A model generated the notes under the pieces. It searched no databases, was not told the DNA's origin, and worked only from the letters and a program-made list of their open reading frames with translations. This document shows, piece after piece, positions 29,596 through 41,026 of a stretch of 54,421 nucleotides of DNA. Positions within the stretch are counted from its first letter, which is position 1, and each line of letters begins with the position of its first letter. The DNA is from Oscillospiraceae bacterium (GTDB taxonomy: Bacteria > Bacillota > Clostridia > Oscillospirales > Oscillospiraceae), in contig JAJQBY010000128.1 in NCBI GenBank assembly GCA_021203045.1, positions 2,737 through 57,157 on the forward strand, in the 5' to 3' direction. Position numbers and translations under genes: made by a program.

Positions 29596-30387
29596 CTATG
29601 GCCTCCATTCCTCACCGCAGCACGCCGCATCCATCATCTCCCCCACCGGCCCGTCGTACCAAAGCCTGTTCATCGCCAGACCCTGAGGCGGCATGGTGGG
29701 TCCGGTCAGACGGCGGTTGCCCTTTTCCAGCAGGGCCGGGATATCCTCCGGCTCCAGCTTGCCGTAGGAGGCATAGACCAGCGTACCCACGATAGCCCGC
29801 ACCATGTTATATAAAAATCCGTTGGCGCAGACCGCCACGGTGATGATATCGCCCCGGCGGGCCACATCGCACCAGTATATGGTGCGGACGGTAGTCCTCG
29901 TCTCCGTCCCCACGCTGCGAACGGCGGCAAAATCATGGGTGCCCACAAAGGCCGACGCCGCCCGGGCCATGCGGTCCGTATCCAGCGGCTGTGGGTAAAA
30001 GCAGGCCCGCCGGCTGAGAAAGGGGTCCCGGATGGGACTGTTGTGGATAGTGTATACATACTCCTTTTTGATGCAGGAGCCGATGGCGTTAAAATCCTCC
30101 GAGGCCTCCACGGCGGCAGATACGGCAATATCCCCCGGCAGGCGGCTGTTCAGCGCCAGGGGGATGCGATCAGCGGGGATAGGGCAGTCTGTGCGGAAAT
30201 TGGCGCAGTAGCGCAATGCGTGGACCCCGGCGTCCGTCCGGCCGCAGCCGGTGACATGGGCGGAATGCTTGCATATTTTTGCCACGGCCTGCTCCACCGT
30301 CTGCTGGACGGTGATATCCCTGGCCTGGGTCTGCCAGCCGTGATAGCCCGTCCCGTCATAGGACAGGCACAAAGCGATATTTCTCAT
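29596..30387 (-). CDS. truA: tRNA pseudouridine(38-40) synthase TruA
   Basis: 263 aa from MRNIALCLSYDG, whose ATG overlaps the ecfT stop (ATGA). The catalytic GRTDAGVHA motif with the essential aspartate is at about residues 50-58. TruA converts uridines 38-40 of the anticodon arm to pseudouridine. The order ecfA1-ecfA2-ecfT-truA is classical for Firmicutes. Confidence 0.95.
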   Translation of the reverse strand: MRNIALCLSYDGTGYHGWQTQARDITVQQTVEQAVAKICKHSAHVTGCGRTDAGVHALRYCANFRTDCPIPADRIPLALNSRLPGDIAVSAAVEASEDFNAIGSCIKKEYVYTIHNSPIRDPFLSRRACFYPQPLDTDRMARAASAFVGTHDFAAVRSVGTETRTTVRTIYWCDVARRGDIITVAVCANGFLYNMVRAIVGTLVYASYGKLEPEDIPALLEKGNRRLTGPTMPPQGLAMNRLWYDGPVGEMMDAACCGEEWRP

Positions 30388-31190
30388 ATGCCAAACCTCC
30401 GCAACAGCAGCACACCGGCCACCAGCGCAGCCCCCAGCAAAAGCGCGGCCCCGTCTCCCCGCTTCATGCGAAGCTGCTTCATTCTGGTGCGCCCTTCTCC
30501 CCCATTGTAGCACCGGCATTCCATGGCCAGGGCCAGCTCGTCCGCCCGCCGGAAGGCAGATACGAAAAGAGGTATCAGCAGGGGCAGCAGCGCCTTCGCC
30601 CGCTCCACCAGGGAGCCGGTCTCCAGATCGGCCCCGCGGGCCTTCTGCGCGGACATGATACGGTCGGTCTCCTCGATCAGCGTGGGGATAAACCGCAGGG
30701 CGATGGACATCATCAGGCTCAGCTCATATACCGGCACATGGAGCTTTTTCAGGGGGTTCAGCAGCCGTTCCAGTCCGTCTGTAATGGACAGAGGCGAGGT
30801 CGTATAGGTCAGCATGAAGGTGCCGGACACCAGCAGCATCACCCGCACTACCATGACTATGGCGTTTTTCAATCCCGTATAGGTGATTTTGATGAACCGC
30901 CACTGGATAAGGTAATCCTCTCCGCTGGTAAAAAAGAGATTGATCACCGCTGTGAAAATGATAAGAAACAGCAGAGGCTTCAGGCCCTTGAACAACGCCT
31001 TCGGCTTAATGTGACTGATACCGGCTGCGGCAGCCAGCCACAGCGCCACCAGCATATAGCCTCCCACGGAGCCTGCCATGAACAGGGCGGCGATGTATAC
31101 GACGGTCAAAATCAGCTTTGTCCGGGGGTCCAGGCAGTGGACAGGCGTATCGTCCGGAAAATACTGGCCGAGGGTGATATCCTTCAGCAT
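30384..31190 (-). CDS. ecfT: Energy-coupling factor transporter transmembrane protein EcfT
   Basis: 268 aa: several membrane helices, the N-terminal DPRTKL signature (about 21-26), and the coupling helices with ARG motifs (e.g. AQKARGAD, about 187-194) that dock on the two ATPases. EcfT is the shared scaffold for group II ECF vitamin and metal importers, whose S-components are encoded elsewhere. It overlaps ecfA2 by 7 nt and truA by 4 nt. Confidence 0.95.
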   Translation of the reverse strand: MLKDITLGQYFPDDTPVHCLDPRTKLILTVVYIAALFMAGSVGGYMLVALWLAAAAGISHIKPKALFKGLKPLLFLIIFTAVINLFFTSGEDYLIQWRFIKITYTGLKNAIVMVVRVMLLVSGTFMLTYTTSPLSITDGLERLLNPLKKLHVPVYELSLMMSIALRFIPTLIEETDRIMSAQKARGADLETGSLVERAKALLPLLIPLFVSAFRRADELALAMECRCYNGGEGRTRMKQLRMKRGDGAALLLGAALVAGVLLLRRFGI

Positions 31191-32050
31191 GGCCGCCCCT
31201 CCTTCCCCCGCAGGGTCAGGATGGCCTCCCGGAGCCTGTCCGTGGTGTAGATGTCCTCCGGCAGGGCAGCGCCCTTCCGGCGCAAGAGCATGGCGATGCG
31301 GGCAGCGCCCGGCAGATCAAGGCCCATAGCCTGAAGCCGGTCTCCCTGGGAGAATATCTCCGCCGGTCCCCCGTCCATGACGATGCGGCCCCCGTCCATG
31401 ACCAGAAGCCTCTCGCAGCAGCCGGCGGCGATGTCCATGTCATGGGTCACCAGCAGGATGGTGGCGTTCCGGGCCTTTTTCCAGGCCAGCAGCCGTTCCA
31501 GCAGATCGGCCCGCCCGGCGGGATCGAGCCCGGCGGTGGGCTCATCCAGCACCAGCAGCTCCGGCTCCATGGCCAGCACCCCGGCAATGGCCGCCCGCCG
31601 CTTCTGTCCTCCGGAGATCTCCAGGGGAGACTGGGAAAATGTATCTTCCCCCAGTCCCACAAATGCAGCAGCCTCCCGCACCCGGCGGTCTATCTCCTCC
31701 GGTGGGAGCTTCTGGTTTTTAGGGCCGAAGGCGATATCGTCAAAGACGTTCTCCTCAAAAAGCTGATACTCCGGGTACTGGAACACCAGCCCTACCCGGA
31801 ACCGGGCGGCGCGCATGGCCTCCTTGGAGGCATAGATATCCTGCCCGTCCAGAAGGACGGCCCCCTCCGTGGGCTTCAGCAGGGCGTTCATATGCTGTAT
31901 CAGCGTACTCTTGCCGCTGCCGGTATGGCCCAGCAGTCCCACGGTCTGTCCCTGACAAATCGTCAGATCGATGTGATCGACAGCCGCCTTTTCAAAGGGC
32001 GTGCCCTGGCTGTATATATGGGTCAGGCCCCGTAATTCCATCAGCGGCAT
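31184..32050 (-). CDS. ecfA2: Energy-coupling factor ATPase EcfA2
   Basis: 288 aa from MPLMELRG, 10 nt inside the end of ecfA1 and with GGGAGGG just upstream. Walker A GHTGSGKST, signature ISGGQKRR, Walker B LLVLDEPTAGLD and the switch histidine (TLLVTHDM-like) are all present. It forms the ATPase heterodimer with EcfA1 to drive vitamin uptake. No S-component gene is nearby, as usual for this shared module. Confidence 0.94.
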   Translation of the reverse strand: MPLMELRGLTHIYSQGTPFEKAAVDHIDLTICQGQTVGLLGHTGSGKSTLIQHMNALLKPTEGAVLLDGQDIYASKEAMRAARFRVGLVFQYPEYQLFEENVFDDIAFGPKNQKLPPEEIDRRVREAAAFVGLGEDTFSQSPLEISGGQKRRAAIAGVLAMEPELLVLDEPTAGLDPAGRADLLERLLAWKKARNATILLVTHDMDIAAGCCERLLVMDGGRIVMDGGPAEIFSQGDRLQAMGLDLPGAARIAMLLRRKGAALPEDIYTTDRLREAILTLRGKEGRPC

Positions 32051-32877
32051 AGTCCCTCCCATATGATCGAGGCGCACTCCTCGTCTGTCAGCCCATCCAT
32101 CGGAAGCTCCATCCCGGCGGCGTTCAGGCTCTCTATCAGCTCTGTCCCGTCCGGCACCGCCAGAGAAAGGCTTCTGAGCCGTTCCGCCTGGGGAAATATC
32201 TCCCTGGGCGTGCCGTCCATAACAAGGCGGCCTGCCGCCAGCACGATAATCCGGTCAGCCCGGGCGGCCTCCTCCATGTGATGGGTAATCAGCACCACGG
32301 TGATGCCCCGGTCCCGGCACAGCGCCTCCACCGCATCCATAACCTCCCGGCGGCCCCGGGGGTCCAGCATGGCGGTAGGCTCATCCAGCACCAGCACCTC
32401 CGGCTCCATAGCCAGGATACCGGCGATGGCAACCCGCTGCTTCTGTCCCCCGGAGAGCAGATGGGGCGCGTGCATACGCAGCTCATACATCCCCACCTGA
32501 CGGAGGGCGCTGTCCACCCGGCGGCGTATCTCCTCCGACGGGACACCCAGGTTCTCCGGGGCAAAGGCCACGTCGTCCTCCACCACGTTCGCCACGATCT
32601 GGTTGTCCGGATTCTGGAACACCATTCCCACCCGGCGGCGGATACCCAGGAGGTCGTCCTCATTGGCCGTGTCCAGTCCGTCCACCAACACCTGTCCGGC
32701 GGTGGGGACGAGGATGGCGTTCAAATGCTTTGCCAGGGTGGACTTTCCGCTGCCGTTGGCCCCCAGCACCGCCACAAAGCTCCCCTGTTCGATGGTCAGG
32801 TCGATGTCCGACAGGGCCGGGGCCGCCGTCTCCGGATAAGAGAAGGACAGGCCCCGTATTTGAATCACAGGCTCCAT
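32041..32877 (-). CDS. ecfA1: Energy-coupling factor ATPase EcfA1
   Basis: 278 aa from MEPVIQIRGLSF; the long upstream extension of this frame overlaps the methyltransferase and is not coding. Walker A GANGSGKST (about 41-49), signature LSGGQKQR (about 140-147), Walker B VLVLDEPTAMLD and ITHHMEEA complete the ATPase. The ribosome site GAGG lies about 12 nt upstream, rather far. There is a 77-nt gap to the upstream methyltransferase. rplQ, the usual upstream neighbour of this cluster, is not here. Confidence 0.94.
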   Translation of the reverse strand: MEPVIQIRGLSFSYPETAAPALSDIDLTIEQGSFVAVLGANGSGKSTLAKHLNAILVPTAGQVLVDGLDTANEDDLLGIRRRVGMVFQNPDNQIVANVVEDDVAFAPENLGVPSEEIRRRVDSALRQVGMYELRMHAPHLLSGGQKQRVAIAGILAMEPEVLVLDEPTAMLDPRGRREVMDAVEALCRDRGITVVLITHHMEEAARADRIIVLAAGRLVMDGTPREIFPQAERLRSLSLAVPDGTELIESLNAAGMELPMDGLTDEECASIIWEGLCR

Positions 32878-32954
32878 GCTGTATATTACCTCGCAAGAAT
32901 TCGGAAAGGGCCGTATTCCGAAACGTCCCAATAAACCGGAAAATTTGATGAAAT

Positions 32955-33818
32955 TTAATATTCCCACCGGCAGCTCGCCCCGCAGGGAAGCACAAGACCG
33001 GACGCTGTGGCCCGCAGGCCCAGCTCCTGAGCGTCGCTGCGGCCGGCGGCGTATTTTTTTGTGAAAAGGCTTTCGGATATATAGGCCAGCACCGAGGGAG
33101 ACAGGCCCGTGGTATAGGAGTTTATCAGAACAAACAAGGGCTCGTCGCTCAGAAGCTGGCTCACGGTCTGGCACAGAGGCCAGAGATTGTCCTCCAGCCG
33201 CCACACCTCGCCCCCCGGCCCACGGCCATAGGAGGGCGGGTCCATGATGATAGCGTCGTATACATGGCCCCGGCGAATCTCCCGCTGGCAGAACTTCACG
33301 CAGTCGTCCACAATCCAGCGGACGCTTCTGTCCGCCACACCGCAGAGTGCGGCGTTCTCCCTGGCCCACTGCACCATGCCCTTGGCAGCGTCCACATGGC
33401 ACACGCTGGCCCCGGCCCGGAGGCAGGCACAGGTGGCGGCCCCCGTATAGGCAAACAGGTTCAGCACCCGGATGGGCCGGCCTGCGGCGCGTATCCTTTC
33501 CATAGCCCAGTCCCAGTTGGACGCCTGCTCCGGAAACAGGCCGGTGTGCTTAAAGCTCATGGGCTTCACCTGAAAGGTCAGGGGTCCGTAGGCGATCCTC
33601 CAGCTCTGGGGCAGGCGGTTTTTCTCCCACGCGCCGCCCCCGGCGGAGCTGCGGCGATAGACAGCCTCCGGCGTTTTCCACCGGGGGTCCCGCCGGTCCG
33701 TAGCCCAGATGGCCTGGGGATCGGGTCGCAGAAGGATATGACTGCCCCACCGCTCCAGCTTCTCGCCTCCCGAGGCGTCGATCAGCTCATAGTCCTTCCA
33801 TTTATCAGATATCCACAT
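32955..33818 (-). CDS. Class I SAM-dependent methyltransferase, RlmI/RlmK-like
   Basis: 287 aa. SAM-binding motif VLNLFAYTGAATCACLRAGA (about 117-136), an aspartate after VCHVDAAKG, and the catalytic-type MDPPSYG (about 194-200) match the 23S rRNA methyltransferase group (RlmI, and the methyltransferase half of RlmKL). The N-terminal PUA domain of RlmI is missing, replaced by a short beta-rich region (about 1-85). RNA is the likely substrate, but the exact base is unknown. It precedes ecfA1 in the same direction and may lead the operon. Confidence 0.8.
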   Translation of the reverse strand: MWISDKWKDYELIDASGGEKLERWGSHILLRPDPQAIWATDRRDPRWKTPEAVYRRSSAGGGAWEKNRLPQSWRIAYGPLTFQVKPMSFKHTGLFPEQASNWDWAMERIRAAGRPIRVLNLFAYTGAATCACLRAGASVCHVDAAKGMVQWARENAALCGVADRSVRWIVDDCVKFCQREIRRGHVYDAIIMDPPSYGRGPGGEVWRLEDNLWPLCQTVSQLLSDEPLFVLINSYTTGLSPSVLAYISESLFTKKYAAGRSDAQELGLRATASGLVLPCGASCRWEY

Positions 33819-33855
33819 AATAATACCATCATAAAATCAATTTCGTGTCAATGCG

Positions 33856-34653
33856 TTAGTTCATATAATAGGCCGCCACCACGCTGGAGACCAGGATGCC
33901 GTCCACCTCGCCGTTTTTCAGGGCCTGGAAAAGCCCGTCCGTATCGGTCTGATAGACCACGGCCCCCAGGCTGCTCATAAAGCTCGCATCCTGCTGCAGG
34001 ACGGATATATCGGCCACCGTCACGCCCAGCGTCTTGTTCCGCAGGCCGGATTTCCGATGGATGCGGGTGCTGGTGCTGGTGACGAGCACATACTGGCTTG
34101 TCAGATAGGCGGGAGAGTAGTCGAAGCCGGAGGTCTGATTCGCGCCGGAAACGCCCATGGCCATATCGATATTCCCGGAATTCAGCTCTATGTCCGCATC
34201 GGCGATATTGATAGGATACAGGTCCATGCTCCAGCCAAGATAACCGCATATATAGCTGGCAAGCTCCACGTCAAAGCCGCTGTAGCCATCCCCGGAGGCG
34301 TAGCTCATGGGCATATTGGTGATATCGATGCCCACAATGATGGTGCGCTCCGGCACAGTATCCCACAGCTCGTCCATAGCCCCGGACTGGCCCCGGATGG
34401 CGATCAGGTTTTCCCCAAACCAGCTGTTGGAAAGGGAACGGAGAGACCCGCTGGCCGCCAGCTCATACAGGGCAGCGGTAACGTAGTCCGCGATCTGATC
34501 TCCCTCCCGAAAGCCGATAACATAGCTGCCCTCGGCAGTAAAGGAGTCGATCACCCTGTAGCCGTTGCCGCTGTCGCCGCCGGAGCAGGCCGCAAGACCC
34601 AGCAGCAGCGCCAAACACAGAAGCAGACACAGGATTCGGACAGATCGCAGCAT
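33856..34653 (-). CDS. Circularly permuted family-3 solute-binding lipoprotein
   Basis: 265 aa lipoprotein: signal peptide with lipobox GLAAC, Cys23. Residues 33-86 (SYVIGFREGDQIADYVTAAL...WFGENLIAI) correspond to the C-terminal end of ordinary SBP3 proteins. Residues 103-265 (IIVGIDITNMPMSY..., GFDVELASYI..., NSGNIDMAMG..., ALKNGEVDGIL...AYY) correspond to the N-terminus and middle. A linker (about 87-102) joins them. The order is thus swapped relative to the neighbour at 36346-37164. All pieces of one domain seem present once, so it may fold as a permuted binding protein. It sits downstream of the ATPase with its own promoter, probably feeding the same amino-acid transporter. Confidence 0.8.
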   Translation of the reverse strand: MLRSVRILCLLLCLALLLGLAACSGGDSGNGYRVIDSFTAEGSYVIGFREGDQIADYVTAALYELAASGSLRSLSNSWFGENLIAIRGQSGAMDELWDTVPERTIIVGIDITNMPMSYASGDGYSGFDVELASYICGYLGWSMDLYPINIADADIELNSGNIDMAMGVSGANQTSGFDYSPAYLTSQYVLVTSTSTRIHRKSGLRNKTLGVTVADISVLQQDASFMSSLGAVVYQTDTDGLFQALKNGEVDGILVSSVVAAYYMN

Positions 34654-34700
34654 GAGAGACCTCCTCGTAAAATAAAATCCATGCGGCAGGCACGGATTTT

Positions 34701-34730
34701 ATAGTATCATGATGTATGGTATGAAATCAA
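34701..34730 (-). promoter_or_regulatory. Promoter of the permuted binding-protein gene
   Basis: TTGATT (34725-34730), 18-nt spacer, TACTAT (34701-34706) on the minus strand, about 50 nt before the start codon. Confidence 0.55.
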
Positions 34731-34765
34731 GTGCTTATATCTTAAAGTTTCCGCAAATCTCCCGC

Positions 34766-35548
34766 TCACTGGTTATAGCTGTCCAGGAACCGGCGGGTGC
34801 GCTCCTGGGTGGGAGCGCTGATGACCTGCTCAGGGGGGCCCTCCTCCACGATGCGGCCATCATCCATGAAAATAACCTGGCTCGCCACGTCCCGGGCGAA
34901 GGCGATCTCATGGGTCACGATGATCATAGTGGTCTTCCGCTCCGCCAGTTCCCGGATGACCCGCAAAACCTCCTGGGTAAGCTCCGGGTCCAGAGCGCTG
35001 GTGGGCTCGTCAAAGCAGAGGATGTCCGGCTGAAGCGCCAGCGCCCGGGCGATAGCCACCCGCTGCTGCTGGCCGCCGGAGAGCTGATGGGGATAATTGC
35101 TCATACGGTCGGCAAGACCCATCTGCTCCAGAAGCTGACGGGCCTCCGCCTCGATCTGCCGGTGCAGCTCCTTTTTCCGGCTTTTATAGTCCGGCAGCTC
35201 CTTTGCCAGAAGCTCCCGCGCCAGCATGACGTTTCCAAGGGCCGTATACTGGGGGAACAGATTGAAGGACTGGAACACCAGGCCAAAATGGAGCCGTTTT
35301 TTCCGTATTTCCGCCTCCCGCCGGGTATCCGGCTGGTCTCCGCTGAACAGAAGCTCACCGTTCACGGTGATGGAGCCGCTGTCCGGATGCTCCAGGAAAT
35401 TCAGGCAGCGGAGCAGGGTGGTCTTGCCGGAGCCGGAGGACCCGATGATGGACAGGATCTCGCCCTTTTCCAGGGAGAAGCTGATGCCCTTGAGAATCTC
35501 GGTTTTATCGAAGGATTTTCGGATGTCCTTTACTTCAAGAATCGCCAT
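34766..35548 (-). CDS. Polar amino acid ABC transporter ATP-binding protein
   Basis: 260 aa. Walker A GSSGSGKTT (about 36-44), signature LSGGQQQR (about 149-156), Walker B ILCFDEPTSALD (about 168-179) and the switch histidine in IIVTHEI. Closely follows the GlnQ/ArtP/HisP pattern. It lies 10 nt after the permease gene; together with the binding protein at 36346-37164 it completes an importer for polar amino acids (substrate unknown). Confidence 0.93.
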   Translation of the reverse strand: MAILEVKDIRKSFDKTEILKGISFSLEKGEILSIIGSSGSGKTTLLRCLNFLEHPDSGSITVNGELLFSGDQPDTRREAEIRKKRLHFGLVFQSFNLFPQYTALGNVMLARELLAKELPDYKSRKKELHRQIEAEARQLLEQMGLADRMSNYPHQLSGGQQQRVAIARALALQPDILCFDEPTSALDPELTQEVLRVIRELAERKTTMIIVTHEIAFARDVASQVIFMDDGRIVEEGPPEQVISAPTQERTRRFLDSYNQ

Positions 35549-35558
35549 AGCTGCCTCC

Positions 35559-36245
35559 TTACCGGAAATAGTCCAGCCGCTTTTCCAGCCGGCCGAGCAG
35601 GACGGTCAGCACTCCTGTGAACAGGAGATAGTATACCGCCGTGAAAAACAGGGGCCAAATCACGCCCGAAATCCCCTGGGAGCCCTTCAAAAATGCCTGA
35701 CCGGCCCAGATGATCTCCTGCAATGCGATGATACGGGCCAGAGACGTATCCTTCACCAGGGTGATAATCTCATTGGACATAGGGGGCACGATACGCTTGA
35801 CAACCTGCAGCAGGGTGACCCGGCAGAAGATCTGCCGTTTGGTCATTCCCAGGACCAGGCCCGCCTCCTGTTGTCCCTTGGGGATGCTCTGGATGCCGCC
35901 CCGGTATATCTCCGAAAAATAGCAGGCATAATTGAGGATGAAGGCAATGGATGCGGCCAGAAAACGGCCGGATTCCCCGCTGCCCCAGATGTTGTTGCCC
36001 ATCACCAGGCCGGGAAAATAATATACGATAAGAAGCTGTATCATCAGAGGCGTGCCCCGGACGATCCATACGATCGTGCGCGTCAGCCAGCTCAGCGGAC
36101 GAAAACGGGACATGGAGCCGAAGGAAATGACAAGCCCCAGGGGCATGGCCCCCAACAGGGTGACAAAAAACAGCCTGAGTGTTTGAAGAAAGCCTGTGTT
36201 CAGCGACTGAACAACGATGGGGAACTGCTCCAGGAACAATTCCAT
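35559..36245 (-). CDS. Polar amino acid ABC transporter permease
   Basis: 228 aa from MELFLEQF, whose AGGAG site is 9 nt upstream; a second ATG two codons earlier is too close to it. About five membrane segments, with the HisM/GlnP family motif RGTPLMIQL (about 64-72) and the EAA-type loop QEAGLVLGMTKRQIFCRVTL (about 125-144). It pairs with the downstream ATPase. Confidence 0.92.
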   Translation of the reverse strand: MELFLEQFPIVVQSLNTGFLQTLRLFFVTLLGAMPLGLVISFGSMSRFRPLSWLTRTIVWIVRGTPLMIQLLIVYYFPGLVMGNNIWGSGESGRFLAASIAFILNYACYFSEIYRGGIQSIPKGQQEAGLVLGMTKRQIFCRVTLLQVVKRIVPPMSNEIITLVKDTSLARIIALQEIIWAGQAFLKGSQGISGVIWPLFFTAVYYLLFTGVLTVLLGRLEKRLDYFR

Positions 36246-36284
36246 GGACATCCACTCCTTTCCGGTGGTCTGCGGTCATAAGAA

Positions 36285-36315
36285 ATTTTCCCGGCGAGCA
36301 CGCCGCCGGGAAAAT
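36285..36315 (-). terminator. Attenuator hairpin between binding protein and permease
   Basis: Perfect 12-bp stem ATTTTCCCGGCG (36285-36296) / CGCCGGGAAAAT (36304-36315). Only a modest T-rich tail follows on the minus strand, so partial termination or mRNA stabilisation is likely. This gives the binding protein in excess over the membrane subunits, a common arrangement. Confidence 0.65.
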
Positions 36316-36345
36316 CATAACGGATAGGTCTTTGCGCGGCTTCGA

Positions 36346-37164
36346 TCACTGCGCGATTATAGCGGCCTGAACGCCGTATTTCTCTGCGATCTCCATCATG
36401 GTGCCGTCGGCATAGCTCTCAGCGAAGAATTCATTCAGCGCCTCAGCCAGGTCGGAGCCCTTGCGGAAGCCGACACCGTACTGCTCGCCCTCATCCTCAT
36501 TCAGAGAGATGGTGTAGGTCAGGTCAGCATAGCTGGTACCCTCGCCCACCATGGCGCCGGCCATCAGCGCGTCGATGACAGCGGCGTCGGAGGTGCCGGC
36601 AGCGACCTCCATCAGCGCGTCAGCCTGAGAGGTGACAGGAGTGGTGGCGAAGCCGTTGGCCTCAGCCTGGCTCTCGCCGGCGCTGCCGGCCTCCACGGCG
36701 AAGGTCAGGTCGGCCATGGATTCCACCGTGTCATACTGATCTGCGACGTCCGCAGGCAGAACCACCACCTGGGTGTTGTTGCAGTAGGCATTGGAGCACT
36801 CCATGGAGGAGGTGACCTCATCGGTCAGGGTCATGCCGTTCCATACGCAGTCGATGCTCCCGGCATCCAGCTCAAGGATCTTGTTGTCCCAGTTGATCTC
36901 CACGAACTCCACGGTAACGCCCAGGCTCTCGGCAAAGGCGGTGGCCATGTCGGCATCGAAGCCGATCCAGTTGCCGTCCTCGTCCTTGTAGTCCATGGGC
37001 TCGAAATCGGTGATGCCCACCACCAGGACGCCCTGGTCCTGGATATAGGCTACCTCGCTCTCCTCCTCGGAGCTGTCATCGGAGCTGGAAGAGGAGCAGG
37101 CAGCCAGGGCGAATACCATCATTATTGCCAGCAGCAGAGCCAGCATCTTTTTCATCGTTTTCAT
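36346..37164 (-). CDS. Family-3 amino acid-binding lipoprotein
   Basis: 272 aa. Signal peptide with lipobox ALAAC (Cys23), Ser/Asp/Glu linker, then a normal-order SBP3 domain: VVGITDFEPMDY (about 48-59), WIGFDADMATAFAESLG, LDAGSIDCVWNGMT, DAAVIDALMA, and YGVGFRKGSDLAEALNEF near the C-terminus. It delivers a polar amino acid to the permease encoded next. It is the intact-order relative of the permuted protein at 33856-34653. A promoter with 17-nt spacing lies at 37210-37238. Confidence 0.92.
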   Translation of the reverse strand: MKTMKKMLALLLAIMMVFALAACSSSSSDDSSEEESEVAYIQDQGVLVVGITDFEPMDYKDEDGNWIGFDADMATAFAESLGVTVEFVEINWDNKILELDAGSIDCVWNGMTLTDEVTSSMECSNAYCNNTQVVVLPADVADQYDTVESMADLTFAVEAGSAGESQAEANGFATTPVTSQADALMEVAAGTSDAAVIDALMAGAMVGEGTSYADLTYTISLNEDEGEQYGVGFRKGSDLAEALNEFFAESYADGTMMEIAEKYGVQAAIIAQ

Positions 37165-37209
37165 ATTTGGTTTATCCTCCTTAATGGTTTTTCTGTTTGT
37201 CCGCTGAGT

Positions 37210-37238
37210 ATTTTACTACATTACCACACTAAAGTAAA
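37210..37238 (-). promoter_or_regulatory. Promoter of the amino acid transporter operon
   Basis: TTTACT (37233-37238), 17-nt spacer, TAAAAT (37210-37215) on the minus strand. The -35 lies inside an 8-base inverted repeat, AAAGTAAA (37231-37238) / TTTACTTT (37257-37264), a possible operator. Confidence 0.5.
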
Positions 37239-37385
37239 GAGCTTTTTTCCTCCGACTTTACTTTTTTTACATTTTGTTCACCTAAGTTGAACGGGCCGGT
37301 ATATAATTAGGGTAGATTGAACAACAGGGGCTCCAGCCCCGGTTTTTAAAGCAGCATATATTACATGCACAGGAGGCACGTTGCC

Positions 37386-38075
37386 ATGGGAAAAAAAGCG
37401 CTTATCATCGAGGATGACGGCAGTATCGCGGAGCTGCTGCGGCTGTATCTGGAAAAGGACGGCTTCGAGGTGGCCCAGGCCGGGGACGGAGGCCAGGGAA
37501 CGGAGCTGGCCCAGAGCTTTGAGCCGGATGTGATTCTGCTGGATATCATGCTGCCCGTAAAGGACGGGTGGCAGGTATGCCGCGAGGTGCGCAGCTTCTC
37601 CAAGACGCCCATCATCATGCTGACCGCCAAGGGCGAGACGGCGGATAAGGTGGCCGGCCTGGAGATGGGGGCGGACGACTATCTCACCAAGCCCTTTGAG
37701 GTAAAAGAGCTGCTGGCCCGGGTACACGCCATAATGCGCCGCACCGCTGAGGACGAGGGAGACAAGCCCAAGCGCCTGAGCTTTGATAAGCTGGTCATCG
37801 ACCTGGATTCCTATGAGCTGATCGTAGACGGAAAAAAGGTGGACACACCTCCCAAGGAGATGGAGCTGCTGTTCCATCTGGCTTCCTCCCCCAACCGGGT
37901 ATACACCAGAAATCAGCTACTGGATGAGGTATGGGGCTTCGACTACTTCGGCGATTCCCGGACGGTGGATGTCCACGTCAAGCGGCTGCGGGAGAAGCTG
38001 GAGGGCGTATCCGACCAGTGGCGCCTGAAGACCGTCTGGGGCGTGGGCTATAAATTCGAGGTGGGAGCGGCCTGA
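37386..38075 (+). CDS. OmpR-family response regulator
   Basis: 229 aa from MGKKALII, chosen because GGAGG lies 9 nt upstream. Receiver domain (1-120) with the acidic pocket ED, phospho-acceptor D53 in LLDIMLP, and the switch lysine in TKPF. Winged-helix output domain (about 130-225) ends VWGVGYKFE. The turn DEVWGFDYFGDSRTVDVHVKRLREK resembles PhoB/WalR-type regulators. A -10-like TATAAT (37302-37307) lies upstream without a clear -35. The histidine kinase starts 1 nt after its stop. Confidence 0.93.
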   Translation: MGKKALIIEDDGSIAELLRLYLEKDGFEVAQAGDGGQGTELAQSFEPDVILLDIMLPVKDGWQVCREVRSFSKTPIIMLTAKGETADKVAGLEMGADDYLTKPFEVKELLARVHAIMRRTAEDEGDKPKRLSFDKLVIDLDSYELIVDGKKVDTPPKEMELLFHLASSPNRVYTRNQLLDEVWGFDYFGDSRTVDVHVKRLREKLEGVSDQWRLKTVWGVGYKFEVGAA

Positions 38076-38076
38076 G

Positions 38077-39495
38077 GTGAGAAAGAGCGTCTTTTTCAGG
38101 AGCTTTCTCGTCACCGCCTGCATGCTCATTATCTGCTTCGTGGCATTCGGGATCATCATGTTCGTCATGGGCCGGTCCGTCATGATGCAGGACAAGGCGG
38201 AGTCCCTCTATACGAACGCCGATGAGGTGAAGCGCTTCACGGAGGCGCTCGGGACAGAGACCGAGCTGGATAATCTTGTGCTGCGGATGAATCTGTCCAT
38301 CATCGCCCAATGCACAGGCAACCATATCCTTCTCTGTGATGAGGACGGCAGCGTGGTCACAAGCTCTGACGAGACCTGGGTGTCCCCCTACATGGGCAGC
38401 CAAATCAGCAGCAGCGTTCTGTCCACGCTCCAGGAGGAGGGCGTCTATGTGGGCCTGACCGACCTGGGCGGAGTTTACGACGGACTTCACTATGTAGTGG
38501 CAGAAAGCATTGAATCCTATAGCGGGTCCGTGATGGGATATGTGATTGTCAGCTACCCCAGCAGCGGCTTTTTCAGCGCCTGGAGCGGCTTTTTCATGAT
38601 GTTCATCCTGATCGCCGTGGCAGTGCTGGTGGTGGTGGTGCTCCTTGAATACGCCCACGCCCGGCGTCTGGCCCGTCCCCTGCTGGAGATGTCCGAGGCG
38701 GCCCACAACTTCGCTCGGGGAGATTATTCCGCCCGTGTCACCCCCTACCAGCGGGAGGATGAGATCGGTACCCTGACGGAGGCGTTCAACGCCATGGCGG
38801 AGAGCCTGGAGAGGAACGAGGCCCGGCGGCAGGAATTCGTGGCCAACATCTCTCATGAGCTGCGCACACCCATGACCTCCATCGCCGGCTTTGCGGACGG
38901 TCTGCTGGACGGCACCATTCCCCAGTCGGAGGAGAAAAAATATCTCCAGACCATCTCCTCGGAGACCAAGCGGCTCAGCCGCCTGGTGCGGAGCATGCTG
39001 GATGTGTCCCGGCTCCAGGACGGGGGCCAGGTGCGTATGCAGAAATTCGACCTGACGGAAATGGTAGTGCAGACCCTCCTGAACTTCGAGGAGCGTGTGA
39101 ACGGCAAGGGCATGAACGTGGAGCTGAACGTGCCGGAGGGCACGCTTTCCGTAATGGGAGACCTGGACTCCTTGACGCGAGTGGTGTATAATCTTATCGA
39201 CAACGCCATAAAATTCGCCGGACAAGGAACAGATCTGGTCATCAGCATCTGGAAGGAGGACGACCGGGCCTATACCCGGGTGCAGGACACCGGAGCCACC
39301 ATCCCCCAGTCAGAGCTGCCCCTGATCTTCGACCGCTTCCACAAGGCCGATCACTCACGCAGCATGGATAAGGACGGGGTGGGCCTGGGTCTTTATATGG
39401 TGCGGCAGATACTGGCCGCCCACGACCAGGACATCTTCGTGACCAGCGAGAACGGCGTTACCGCCTTTACCTTTACCCTCGCTTTAGCAGAATAA
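38077..39495 (+). CDS. Sensor histidine kinase
   Basis: 472 aa starting with GTG, almost touching the response regulator stop. Membrane segment 1 (about 10-33), extracellular sensor (about 34-168), segment 2 (about 169-191), HAMP (about 192-245), HisKA with phospho-acceptor H260 in NISHELRTPM, then HATPase_c with the N-box NLIDNAIKFA, the G1 box as QDTGATI, and the G2 box GVGLGL. A ~130-residue sensor of this type is seen in envelope-stress kinases. With HtrA next door, a role in sensing misfolded secreted proteins (CssS-like) is plausible inference. Confidence 0.93.
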   Translation: MRKSVFFRSFLVTACMLIICFVAFGIIMFVMGRSVMMQDKAESLYTNADEVKRFTEALGTETELDNLVLRMNLSIIAQCTGNHILLCDEDGSVVTSSDETWVSPYMGSQISSSVLSTLQEEGVYVGLTDLGGVYDGLHYVVAESIESYSGSVMGYVIVSYPSSGFFSAWSGFFMMFILIAVAVLVVVVLLEYAHARRLARPLLEMSEAAHNFARGDYSARVTPYQREDEIGTLTEAFNAMAESLERNEARRQEFVANISHELRTPMTSIAGFADGLLDGTIPQSEEKKYLQTISSETKRLSRLVRSMLDVSRLQDGGQVRMQKFDLTEMVVQTLLNFEERVNGKGMNVELNVPEGTLSVMGDLDSLTRVVYNLIDNAIKFAGQGTDLVISIWKEDDRAYTRVQDTGATIPQSELPLIFDRFHKADHSRSMDKDGVGLGLYMVRQILAAHDQDIFVTSENGVTAFTFTLALAE

Positions 39496-39531
39496 AATTA
39501 TATTACTACTCATTTATATAAAGAACAAAGC

Positions 39532-39571
39532 ATTCATATTTTACAGTTTGTTAATATTTAATTCATATTTT
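39532..39571 (+). promoter_or_regulatory. Direct repeat in front of htrA, candidate response-regulator site
   Basis: The 11-mer ATTCATATTTT occurs twice, at 39532-39542 and 39561-39571, 29 nt apart. The second copy overlaps a weak promoter (TTCATA at 39562-39567, 17-nt spacer, TAGTAT at 39585-39590). Direct repeats are typical OmpR-family operators. Confidence 0.4.
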
Positions 39572-39619
39572 GACGGCCGGTATGTAGTATACTGAATCCG
39601 GCCCTAAGGAGGACTTTCA

Positions 39620-41026
39620 ATGCCTGAGCACAGCACACGCCGTCCGGCGGATTGGTACACTTCATCCCCGGAGCAGGCAAACTGGTATAAAGATCCGTCC
39701 CATGTGGTCATACCCCAGCCGGCGGAAGCGGGTTGTTCCACACACCAACCTCCCCCCCGCTCCGCTGGTTTTGAGGGGCACAAAGCCAAAAAGCGGCGGA
39801 GAACGAAAATTATTTCGCTCTCCGTTTGTGCGTTTCTGGTGTGTGCGGCTCTGGTCGTGGCCCTGTGGCAGATCACCGTCCAGCTGAAAAGCCTTTCCAG
39901 CCAGACGACGGAAAGCGCTTCAGCCCCGACCATCGTCATTCCCAACGGTGATGATAGCTCCGGCTCGGACAGCGGCAGCATATATGACGACTATCAGGAA
40001 TATTTTGAGGCCTATTACTCCACCTCCAGCGAGATCACTATCCCGGCGGCGGAAAACGGGACCGGCGTCACCCTTACCTTGGCAGAGGCCCAGGGTGAGG
40101 AGCTGTCCCTTCAGGATATTTACGATCAGGTCAGCCCTGCGGTAGTGGGCATCACCGCCTATATCGAGGGATATGAATACAGCTATGGCACCGGCGTGGT
40201 GTTCACCTCCGATGGATACATTATTACTAACACCCATGTGCTGGAGGGCTGCGATGCCGCCGTGGTGAAATTCTCTGACGGGACGGAGTACGACGCCTAT
40301 CTGGTAGGCTCGGACGACGCCAGCGACATCGCCGTGCTGTATATCGAGGGAGAGGATCTCCCCTATGCGGAGTTCGGCGATTCCGATGCCCTCCGGGTGG
40401 GCGATCAGGCCATCGCCATCGGAAACCCTTTGGGAGAGACCTATTCCGGCACCATGACGAACGGCATCATCTCCGCCATCAACCGGAATATCACCTATAA
40501 CGGTCACACCATGACCCTTCTGCAAACAAACGCCGCCCTGAACGAGGGCAACTCCGGCGGTCCCCTGATAAACGCCTACGGACAGGTCATCGGCATCACC
40601 AACATGAAGATCATGTCCACCTATTACTCCACAGTGGAGGGCATCGGCTTTGCCATTCCATCCTCGGTGGTGAAGGAGGTGGCCGACCAGCTGATCGAAT
40701 ACGGCGTGGTCCTGGGAGAGCCCACCATCGGCATCGTGGCCGGCTCCGTCAGCGCCGAGGCCATGGAGCTGTACGGCCTGCCGGAGGGAATATATGTCTC
40801 CGAGGTCAGCGAGGGCTCCGACGCCCTGGAAAAGGGCCTGCAGGTGGGCGATGTCATCGTCGCTGTGAACGGCGAGACCGTCACCTCCGTGGCCGATGTA
40901 AACCTGATAAAAGAGGGCTACGAGGTAGGCGATACCATCACCCTGACCGTCTATCGGGACGGGGAAACCTTTGATCTGGAAATAGAGCTGGTGGATAAGA
41001 GCCAGATAGAGCAAACCGCACCATAA
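39620..41026 (+). CDS. HtrA/DegP-type membrane-anchored serine protease with PDZ domain
   Basis: 468 aa. A cytosolic N-terminal tail (1-60, Pro-rich and basic), one membrane segment (about 63-83), an acidic linker, a trypsin-like domain (about 162-355) with catalytic triad H206 (ITNTHVLEG), D236 (SDIAVL) and S312 (NEGNSGGP), and one PDZ domain (about 365-460, VSEGSDALEKGLQVGDVIVAV). HtrA proteases degrade or refold misfolded secreted proteins outside the membrane. The start follows AAGGAGG. In Bacillus the CssRS two-component system induces htrA; the same pairing is seen here. Confidence 0.94.
   Translation: MPEHSTRRPADWYTSSPEQANWYKDPSHVVIPQPAEAGCSTHQPPPRSAGFEGHKAKKRRRTKIISLSVCAFLVCAALVVALWQITVQLKSLSSQTTESASAPTIVIPNGDDSSGSDSGSIYDDYQEYFEAYYSTSSEITIPAAENGTGVTLTLAEAQGEELSLQDIYDQVSPAVVGITAYIEGYEYSYGTGVVFTSDGYIITNTHVLEGCDAAVVKFSDGTEYDAYLVGSDDASDIAVLYIEGEDLPYAEFGDSDALRVGDQAIAIGNPLGETYSGTMTNGIISAINRNITYNGHTMTLLQTNAALNEGNSGGPLINAYGQVIGITNMKIMSTYYSTVEGIGFAIPSSVVKEVADQLIEYGVVLGEPTIGIVAGSVSAEAMELYGLPEGIYVSEVSEGSDALEKGLQVGDVIVAVNGETVTSVADVNLIKEGYEVGDTITLTVYRDGETFDLEIELVDKSQIEQTAP

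Follow-up and report, generated by a model that had tools for sequence, protein, structure and literature searches.

A circularly permuted family-3 solute-binding lipoprotein beside an amino-acid ABC importer of an Oscillospiraceae bacterium, and the likely recurrence of the rearrangement in Clostridia

The gene P0001 of an Oscillospiraceae bacterium, selected and long conserved, encodes a circularly permuted family-3 solute-binding protein (SBP3) lipoprotein. It lies in a 54,421-nucleotide stretch of DNA, the window (GenBank assembly GCA_021203045.1, contig JAJQBY010000128.1, positions 2,737 to 57,157). Judging from the sequence and a predicted structure, a linker of ~17 residues connects the former N and C termini, which both belong to lobe 1. 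The break lies instead at hinge 2, where lobe 2 would recross to lobe 1, and each lobe is therefore one continuous stretch, with one covalent crossing between the two instead of two. The lipid-anchor Cys stands 9 residues ahead of the hinge strand. That P0001 is a naturally permuted SBP3 lipoprotein is close to certain. The full explanation favoured here, which adds recurrence of the permutation and an accessory, ligand-altered role for the protein, is given a probability of roughly 60%.

P0001 matches Pfam SBP_bac_3 (PF00497) with 66.7 bits against a gathering score of 26.4, the best stretch being residues 105-246, and it has the features of the lipoprotein SBP of a Gram-positive ABC importer, namely a lipobox signal peptide and adjoining permease and ATPase genes (Table 1). 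The two-lobed alpha/beta binding-protein fold of the family is present. The canonical order of SBP_bac_3, in which the N part of lobe 1 is followed by lobe 2 and then by the C part of lobe 1, is absent, and P0001 is therefore described as a permuted derivative rather than as a standard member.

Table 1. Features of the permuted gene, its product and the adjoining importer genes, in window positions.
Feature	Positions	Strand	Basis
Circularly permuted SBP3 lipoprotein gene P0001, 265 aa	33856..34653	-	ORF, Pfam, module profiles, rotation scan, model
Signal peptide and lipobox of P0001, residues 1-23 (LAAC at 20-23, Cys23)	34585..34653	-	Sequence; model helix 2-21
AGGAGG, six bases 5' of the P0001 ATG	34660..34665	-	Sequence
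Moved segment of P0001, residues 32-86, normally at the C-terminal end of lobe 1 (strand 32-49, helices 54-68 and 70-79)	34396..34560	-	Profiles, rotation scan, model
Linker from old C terminus to old N terminus, residues 87-103, ends approximate	34345..34395	-	Profiles, alignment, model
Part of lobe 1 that is usually N-terminal, ~residues 104-188, as far as hinge 1 (approximate boundary)	34090..34344	-	Pfam, profiles, model
Lobe 2, ~residues 189-265, with the stop codon; the new C terminus falls at the usual recrossing through hinge 2	33856..34089	-	Profiles, model
Ser256 of P0001, at the position of the conserved Asp	33886..33888	-	Column count over alignment rows
ATPase of an ABC transporter of polar amino-acid type; best NCBIfam matches TcyN and GlnQ, under cut-off	34766..35548	-	ORF, profile scan
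ABC transporter permease, polar amino-acid type	35559..36251	-	ORF, profile scan
Normal-order SBP3 lipoprotein P0002 of the same gene set, internal control	36346..37164	-	Pfam, profiles, rotation scan, model

The rotated order is seen with two module profiles, N (lobe 2 and the N part of lobe 1 that precedes it) and C (the remainder of lobe 1, at the C-terminal end), both built from 11 normal-order proteins, P0002 included. On P0001 the C module falls at residues 32-86 (i-E 1e-9) and the N module at 105-265 (2e-30); P0002 carries the two in the usual order, N then C. An earlier note on this DNA, made from the letters alone, had called P0001 a circular permutation with the usual tail placed first and had taken the neighbour as an internal control. 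Both points hold, with the boundaries slightly moved: the transposed segment is 32-86 rather than 33-86, and the usual start lies at about residue 104 rather than 107. In four normal-order proteins encoded by single ORFs (L032, L033, L034 and L046), the part resembling query residues ~85-264 precedes that resembling ~27-89.

A rotation scan, in which every rotation of the mature protein was scored against a full-length normal-order profile by its best domain, raises P0001 from 105.9 bits in its native order to 148.6 bits when started at residues 93-97. The control P0002, excluded from its own profile, gains 0.1 bit, and the maximum over 300 shuffles is 3.4 bits. Among six other permuted proteins, L031, L085_4843, L104 and L081_7944 gain ~30-61 bits; by best single domain the gain is tiny for L041 (1.6 bits) and L095 (0.8 bits), perhaps due to longer linkers. 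An AlphaFold2 model of P0001 has a pLDDT of 90.0, with block values of 86-98 over residues 31-80, and its secondary-structure elements are largely those of the likewise confident P0002 model in rotated order; the outcome of structure prediction, a check that the earlier note had proposed, thus agrees with the permutation. Packing of residues 32-86 within lobe 1 is suggested by the confidence scores and element order of this model.

The permuted gene is widespread in the genus. Orthologues of 57-100% identity and nearly full length occur in 32 of 35 genus genomes; none was found in G004, G014 and G033 (64, 82 and 84% complete), and G005 carries a second copy. Scanning genome contigs gave 45 loci. 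Thirty-two of these (L049-L080), all from Oscillospiraceae MAGs, hold orthologues of the genus type that are apparently identical with the genes found in the genus genomes, and window-class members at 33-38% identity occur in distant Clostridia (L081-L085 and L087). Homologues with the same permutation, for which the earlier note had advised a search, thus exist both within the genus and beyond it. In genus members the chain runs on for one to a few residues after the last lobe-2 helix, and in distant members it stops near the same place. Pairwise dN/dS values of 0.052-0.092 (10 pairs of five orthologues) indicate strong purifying selection. The genus genomes are draft assemblies, a circumstance in which an artefact of sequencing, assembly or gene calling, or a decaying remnant, might be suspected. 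This explanation is ruled out for practical purposes by the same order, uninterrupted by stops, in 32 separate genus genomes, by the dN/dS values and by the absence of leftover modules beside the gene: among 102 six-frame fragments of at least 20 aa from 32901-37300, significant matches were confined to the two SBP ORFs.

Permuted SBP3s are not restricted to the window clade. Over the ORFs of 173 fetched loci, a non-random set that was picked by similarity searches and includes duplicates, the module order is C-N in 117 cases and N-C in 93. In a 108-row tree of re-ordered modules, a quick tree with SH-aLRT support only and with the long row L043 dropped, the permuted label changes 12 times, at least 8 of these changes being forced by starred branches; a 74-row tree has 7 changes, 4 of them forced. 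Close normal-order relatives are L037 (of L041), L103 and L105 (of L031), L035 and L036 (of L085_4843) and L136 (of L125, L126 and L086). The normal L136:1375-2211 and the permuted L125:1330-2229 and L126:1330-2229 share one clade and one bacterial family and make good matched pairs. A single origin of 12 permuted rows was rejected: forcing their grouping costs 657 log-likelihood (p-AU 0.0001), in a test of 29 rows that were picked after the trees were seen and that leave out the window clade. Independent recurrence of the permutation in Clostridia is very likely, each change on the tree being either a gain or a reversal. A phylum sample of 119 genomes, 45 of them with a match, yielded one genome with the other cut (L180) and, among the matches listed, no new full-length same-cut protein outside the class.

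The halves of these proteins also bear on a chimeric origin, in which the C-terminal segment of one SBP would have been fused ahead of a different, C-terminally truncated SBP. When ten permuted rows were compared module by module, L031, L041 and L085_4843 alone pointed with both halves to one normal-order group: the halves of L031 are both nearest to L103/L105 (63-65% and 67-69%), those of L085_4843 to the L035/L081/L082 group and those of L041 to L037 and its relatives. Such agreement fits permutation rather than shuffled parts, and one intact N module with one intact C module, free of overlap, likewise suits permutation better. The halves of L104, in contrast, are nearest to different normal-order genes. 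Of the remaining six rows, L043 and L086 are unclear and the others are nearest to other permuted rows. The window clade joins racemase-linked normal-order SBPs at 86 support in one tree and stands apart in another, and its own event is too old for both halves to be traced to one normal-order gene. On balance a chimera, which the earlier note had named as the finding that would speak against it, is highly improbable.

Natural circular permutation is thus the preferred account, and it could plausibly have come about by a tandem duplication whose two ends were then lost. The starting point would have been a duplicated SBP gene or an array of SBPs in tandem; removal of the first N-terminal part together with lobe 2, and of the final C-terminal segment, would then leave the C-first order. 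SBP arrays are seen as fusions to a permease in L048:2440-5871, which also has an ATPase, and L038:620-4291; the binding-domain array there starts in lobe 2, and its last element, ahead of the permease, is a lobe-1 N part, a hinge-1 cut in array form. Several genus genomes also have ORFs of ~1130-1170 aa that give similar matches.

The cut at hinge 2 is one of three. Nine proteins are cut at hinge 1, starting in lobe 2 and ending in the N part of lobe 1 (L033_9130, L162, L172, L173, L180, L181, L182, L185 and L187), and one of them, L162 (2185-3024), comes from the bacterial family of the window and is 65% identical to P0002 after re-ordering. A third cut, inside lobe 2, is found in L183 (1367-2212) and L184 (1596-2519). 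Cuts at hinge 1 and hinge 2 both keep each lobe continuous. The spacing between the lipobox Cys, located by a simple pattern, and the first module is 13-82 residues in normal-order proteins (median 24, n=72), 6-9 in window-class proteins for which the match to the C module starts at its first position, and 7-12 in many other permuted rows; others are longer, up to 38-39 in L086 and L124-L127 and 60 in L041. Short tethers at the hinge strand are common among permuted SBP3s but not universal. A different arrangement occurs in L164:99-1106, where the permuted SBP module belongs to a protein of 335 aa that has a hydrophobic stretch at its N terminus and a charged linker, and in which no lipobox was found.

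The position of P0001 behind an importer is largely conserved. In the interval between the ATPase gene and P0001 no terminator-like site was found, and there is one weak promoter-like site at 34725-34696. Of 32 genus loci, 28 have the permuted gene after the ATPase gene and in line with it; in the exceptions, L060, L061, L064 and L071, it is not behind the transporter. All six window-class loci of other Clostridia again place it behind an SBP-permease-ATPase set, the first SBP being itself permuted in L085. The partner transporter of the window clade is of two types, and this, together with the four loci off the transporter, weakens a tight functional link. Beside the operon, at 37365-41026, lie genes that we take from their sequences to encode a response regulator, a histidine kinase and an HtrA-like protein. 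On the other side, 3' of the permuted gene at 29596-33818, are genes presumably for ECF-transporter ATPases and a permease, truA and an rRNA-type methyltransferase, of which the methyltransferase alone was profile-scanned; the order of these genes is kept in several loci.

These surroundings leave some room for a lipoprotein of signalling or sensing that has no part in transport and is perhaps tied to the adjoining two-component system and HtrA-like protein. A response-regulator gene like that of the window is near the permuted gene in 27 of 32 genus loci, and the permuted gene persists while the type of its partner transporter changes. The six distant loci weigh on the other side, since every one of them has the gene behind an importer set and no relatives of the window regulator genes were found in their fetched flanks. 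A purely signalling role is accordingly rather improbable.

A racemase connection was considered as well. At L081:7139-7954, and also in L083, L085, L087, L035-L037 and L056, a racemase-like gene lies close to the ATPase and permuted genes or between the two; an ORF with racemase motifs is in the gap or flank of seven of eight loci read and absent from L086. The ORFs of L081 and L087 score 110-125 bits with the CntK/HisR histidine racemase models, far under the cut-offs of 300 and 400. A CntK-like gene occurs in 5 of 35 genus genomes, and the window genome has none at E 1e-20, which excludes a racemase link as the explanation of the window gene.

The predicted ligand site sets the window clade apart. 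In amino-acid-binding SBP3s a conserved Asp binds the alpha-amino group and a conserved Arg the alpha-carboxylate. The Asp column holds D in 65 of 65 other normal-order rows, in 33 of 34 genus partner rows and in 45 of 47 other permuted rows (the remaining two being gaps). None of the 33 genus window-class rows has Asp (Ser in 32, Thr in one), and the six distant window-class rows have Thr in three, Ser in one and a gap in two. In the clade, the loop bearing the conserved Gly, Ser/Thr and Arg has become shorter or otherwise changed. In the Arg column, made unsure by loop gaps, 52 of 65 other normal-order rows have R, as do 3 of 33 genus window-class rows; with the same uncertainty, the genus partner SBPs have V in 29 of 34. 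The window-clade protein is permuted like apparently functional cousins and has lost the canonical contact in addition. Of its changes, loss of the Asp, on which the earlier note is silent, is the likeliest to alter function.

Whether P0001 could simply be an ordinary second SBP of the importer, binding a standard amino acid with the permutation neutral, is best judged against these cousins. Same-cut proteins outside the window class keep the Asp in all 45 rows with a letter (of 47), and in 34 of 42 loci the next gene in line encodes a permease (L094, which duplicates L031, being uncounted); the other eight, L086, L124-L127, L161, L163 and L164, have no permease next in line within the flank. 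The window gene is moreover under strong purifying selection. Such a role is nonetheless unlikely for P0001: Asp is absent from all genus rows and from all four distant rows with a letter (of six), the binding loop is changed, and the gene set is already headed by P0002, of normal order. An accessory SBP of the importer with a changed ligand or none, rather than its main amino-acid receptor, is the leading if tentative reading, at slightly below even odds. The permuted copy would have been retained as an extra gene behind the importer and would have lost the conserved Asp.

Circular permutation is usually described as a rare change between distant proteins. A circular permutation study of cpRAS and a study of permuted halves of ribose-binding protein have reportedly been carried out. 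Among natural lipoproteins, TpMglB-2 (Tp0684) is a permuted glucose-binding protein, with the permutation also reported in Gram-positive relatives (PMC4990184). P0001 resembles it as a naturally permuted SBP lipoprotein; TpMglB-2, however, is a type I/cluster B sugar binder in which permutation adds a fourth hinge crossing (PMC4990184), whereas in P0001, of another family, one crossing is removed. The best Pfam and NCBIfam matches of P0001 are family-3 amino-acid binders, and it does not belong to the type Ic permuted sugar-binding family. Permutation among two-lobed binding proteins was likewise reported with CPSARST for glycine betaine-binding proteins compared with molybdate-binding proteins and CysB (PMC2395249). 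Those pairs are <24% identical and were found by structure (PMC2395249), unlike the present case, which lies within one family and between close relatives. In the OpuA paper PMC2861598 none of four terms looked for on permutation occurs.

Within SBP_bac_3 itself, the polar amino-acid binders GlnH, HisJ and S. pneumoniae 4ohn differ from P0001, in which the C segment comes first and lobe 2 last, and from the window clade, which is without the conserved Asp. In BvgS and GlnPQ (4q0c, 6h30) the order of a C segment followed by an N part does arise, across the boundary of tandem binding domains in one chain, and the A3 profile matches 4q0c residues 283-504 in one stretch; P0001, in contrast, has one C and one N module only. 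No solved permuted SBP3 structure was seen among the best 60 of 169 and the best 60 of 182 PDB sequences, except the tandem BvgS in the former list; the longest of the 50 listed VIA alignments to structures covers 173 residues, and a permuted SBP3 structure may still exist. Permuted SBPs of other classes are known, and no paper on permuted SBP3s was met in a literature search outside whose scope most subscription papers fell, which is weak evidence of novelty. Family profiles match permuted SBP3s partly or piecewise, so that the rearrangement is easily missed.

A broader and rather speculative proposal is that the hinges of family 3 are recurrent natural break points, with three cut sites and many permuted versions in Clostridia, and that hinge cuts move the lipid anchor. 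With its anchor at the hinge and its ligand contact lost, the window-clade protein might then serve as a ligand-independent docking partner, a brake or placeholder opposed to the normal SBP; such a function is improbable on present evidence. What the permuted SBP3s do offer is recurrence of the change inside one protein family, where close relatives, such as the normal L136 and the permuted L125 and L126 of one bacterial family, differ by permutation. These natural matched pairs would allow a test of how the number of hinge crossings and the position of the anchor affect folding, ligand closure and transporter docking.
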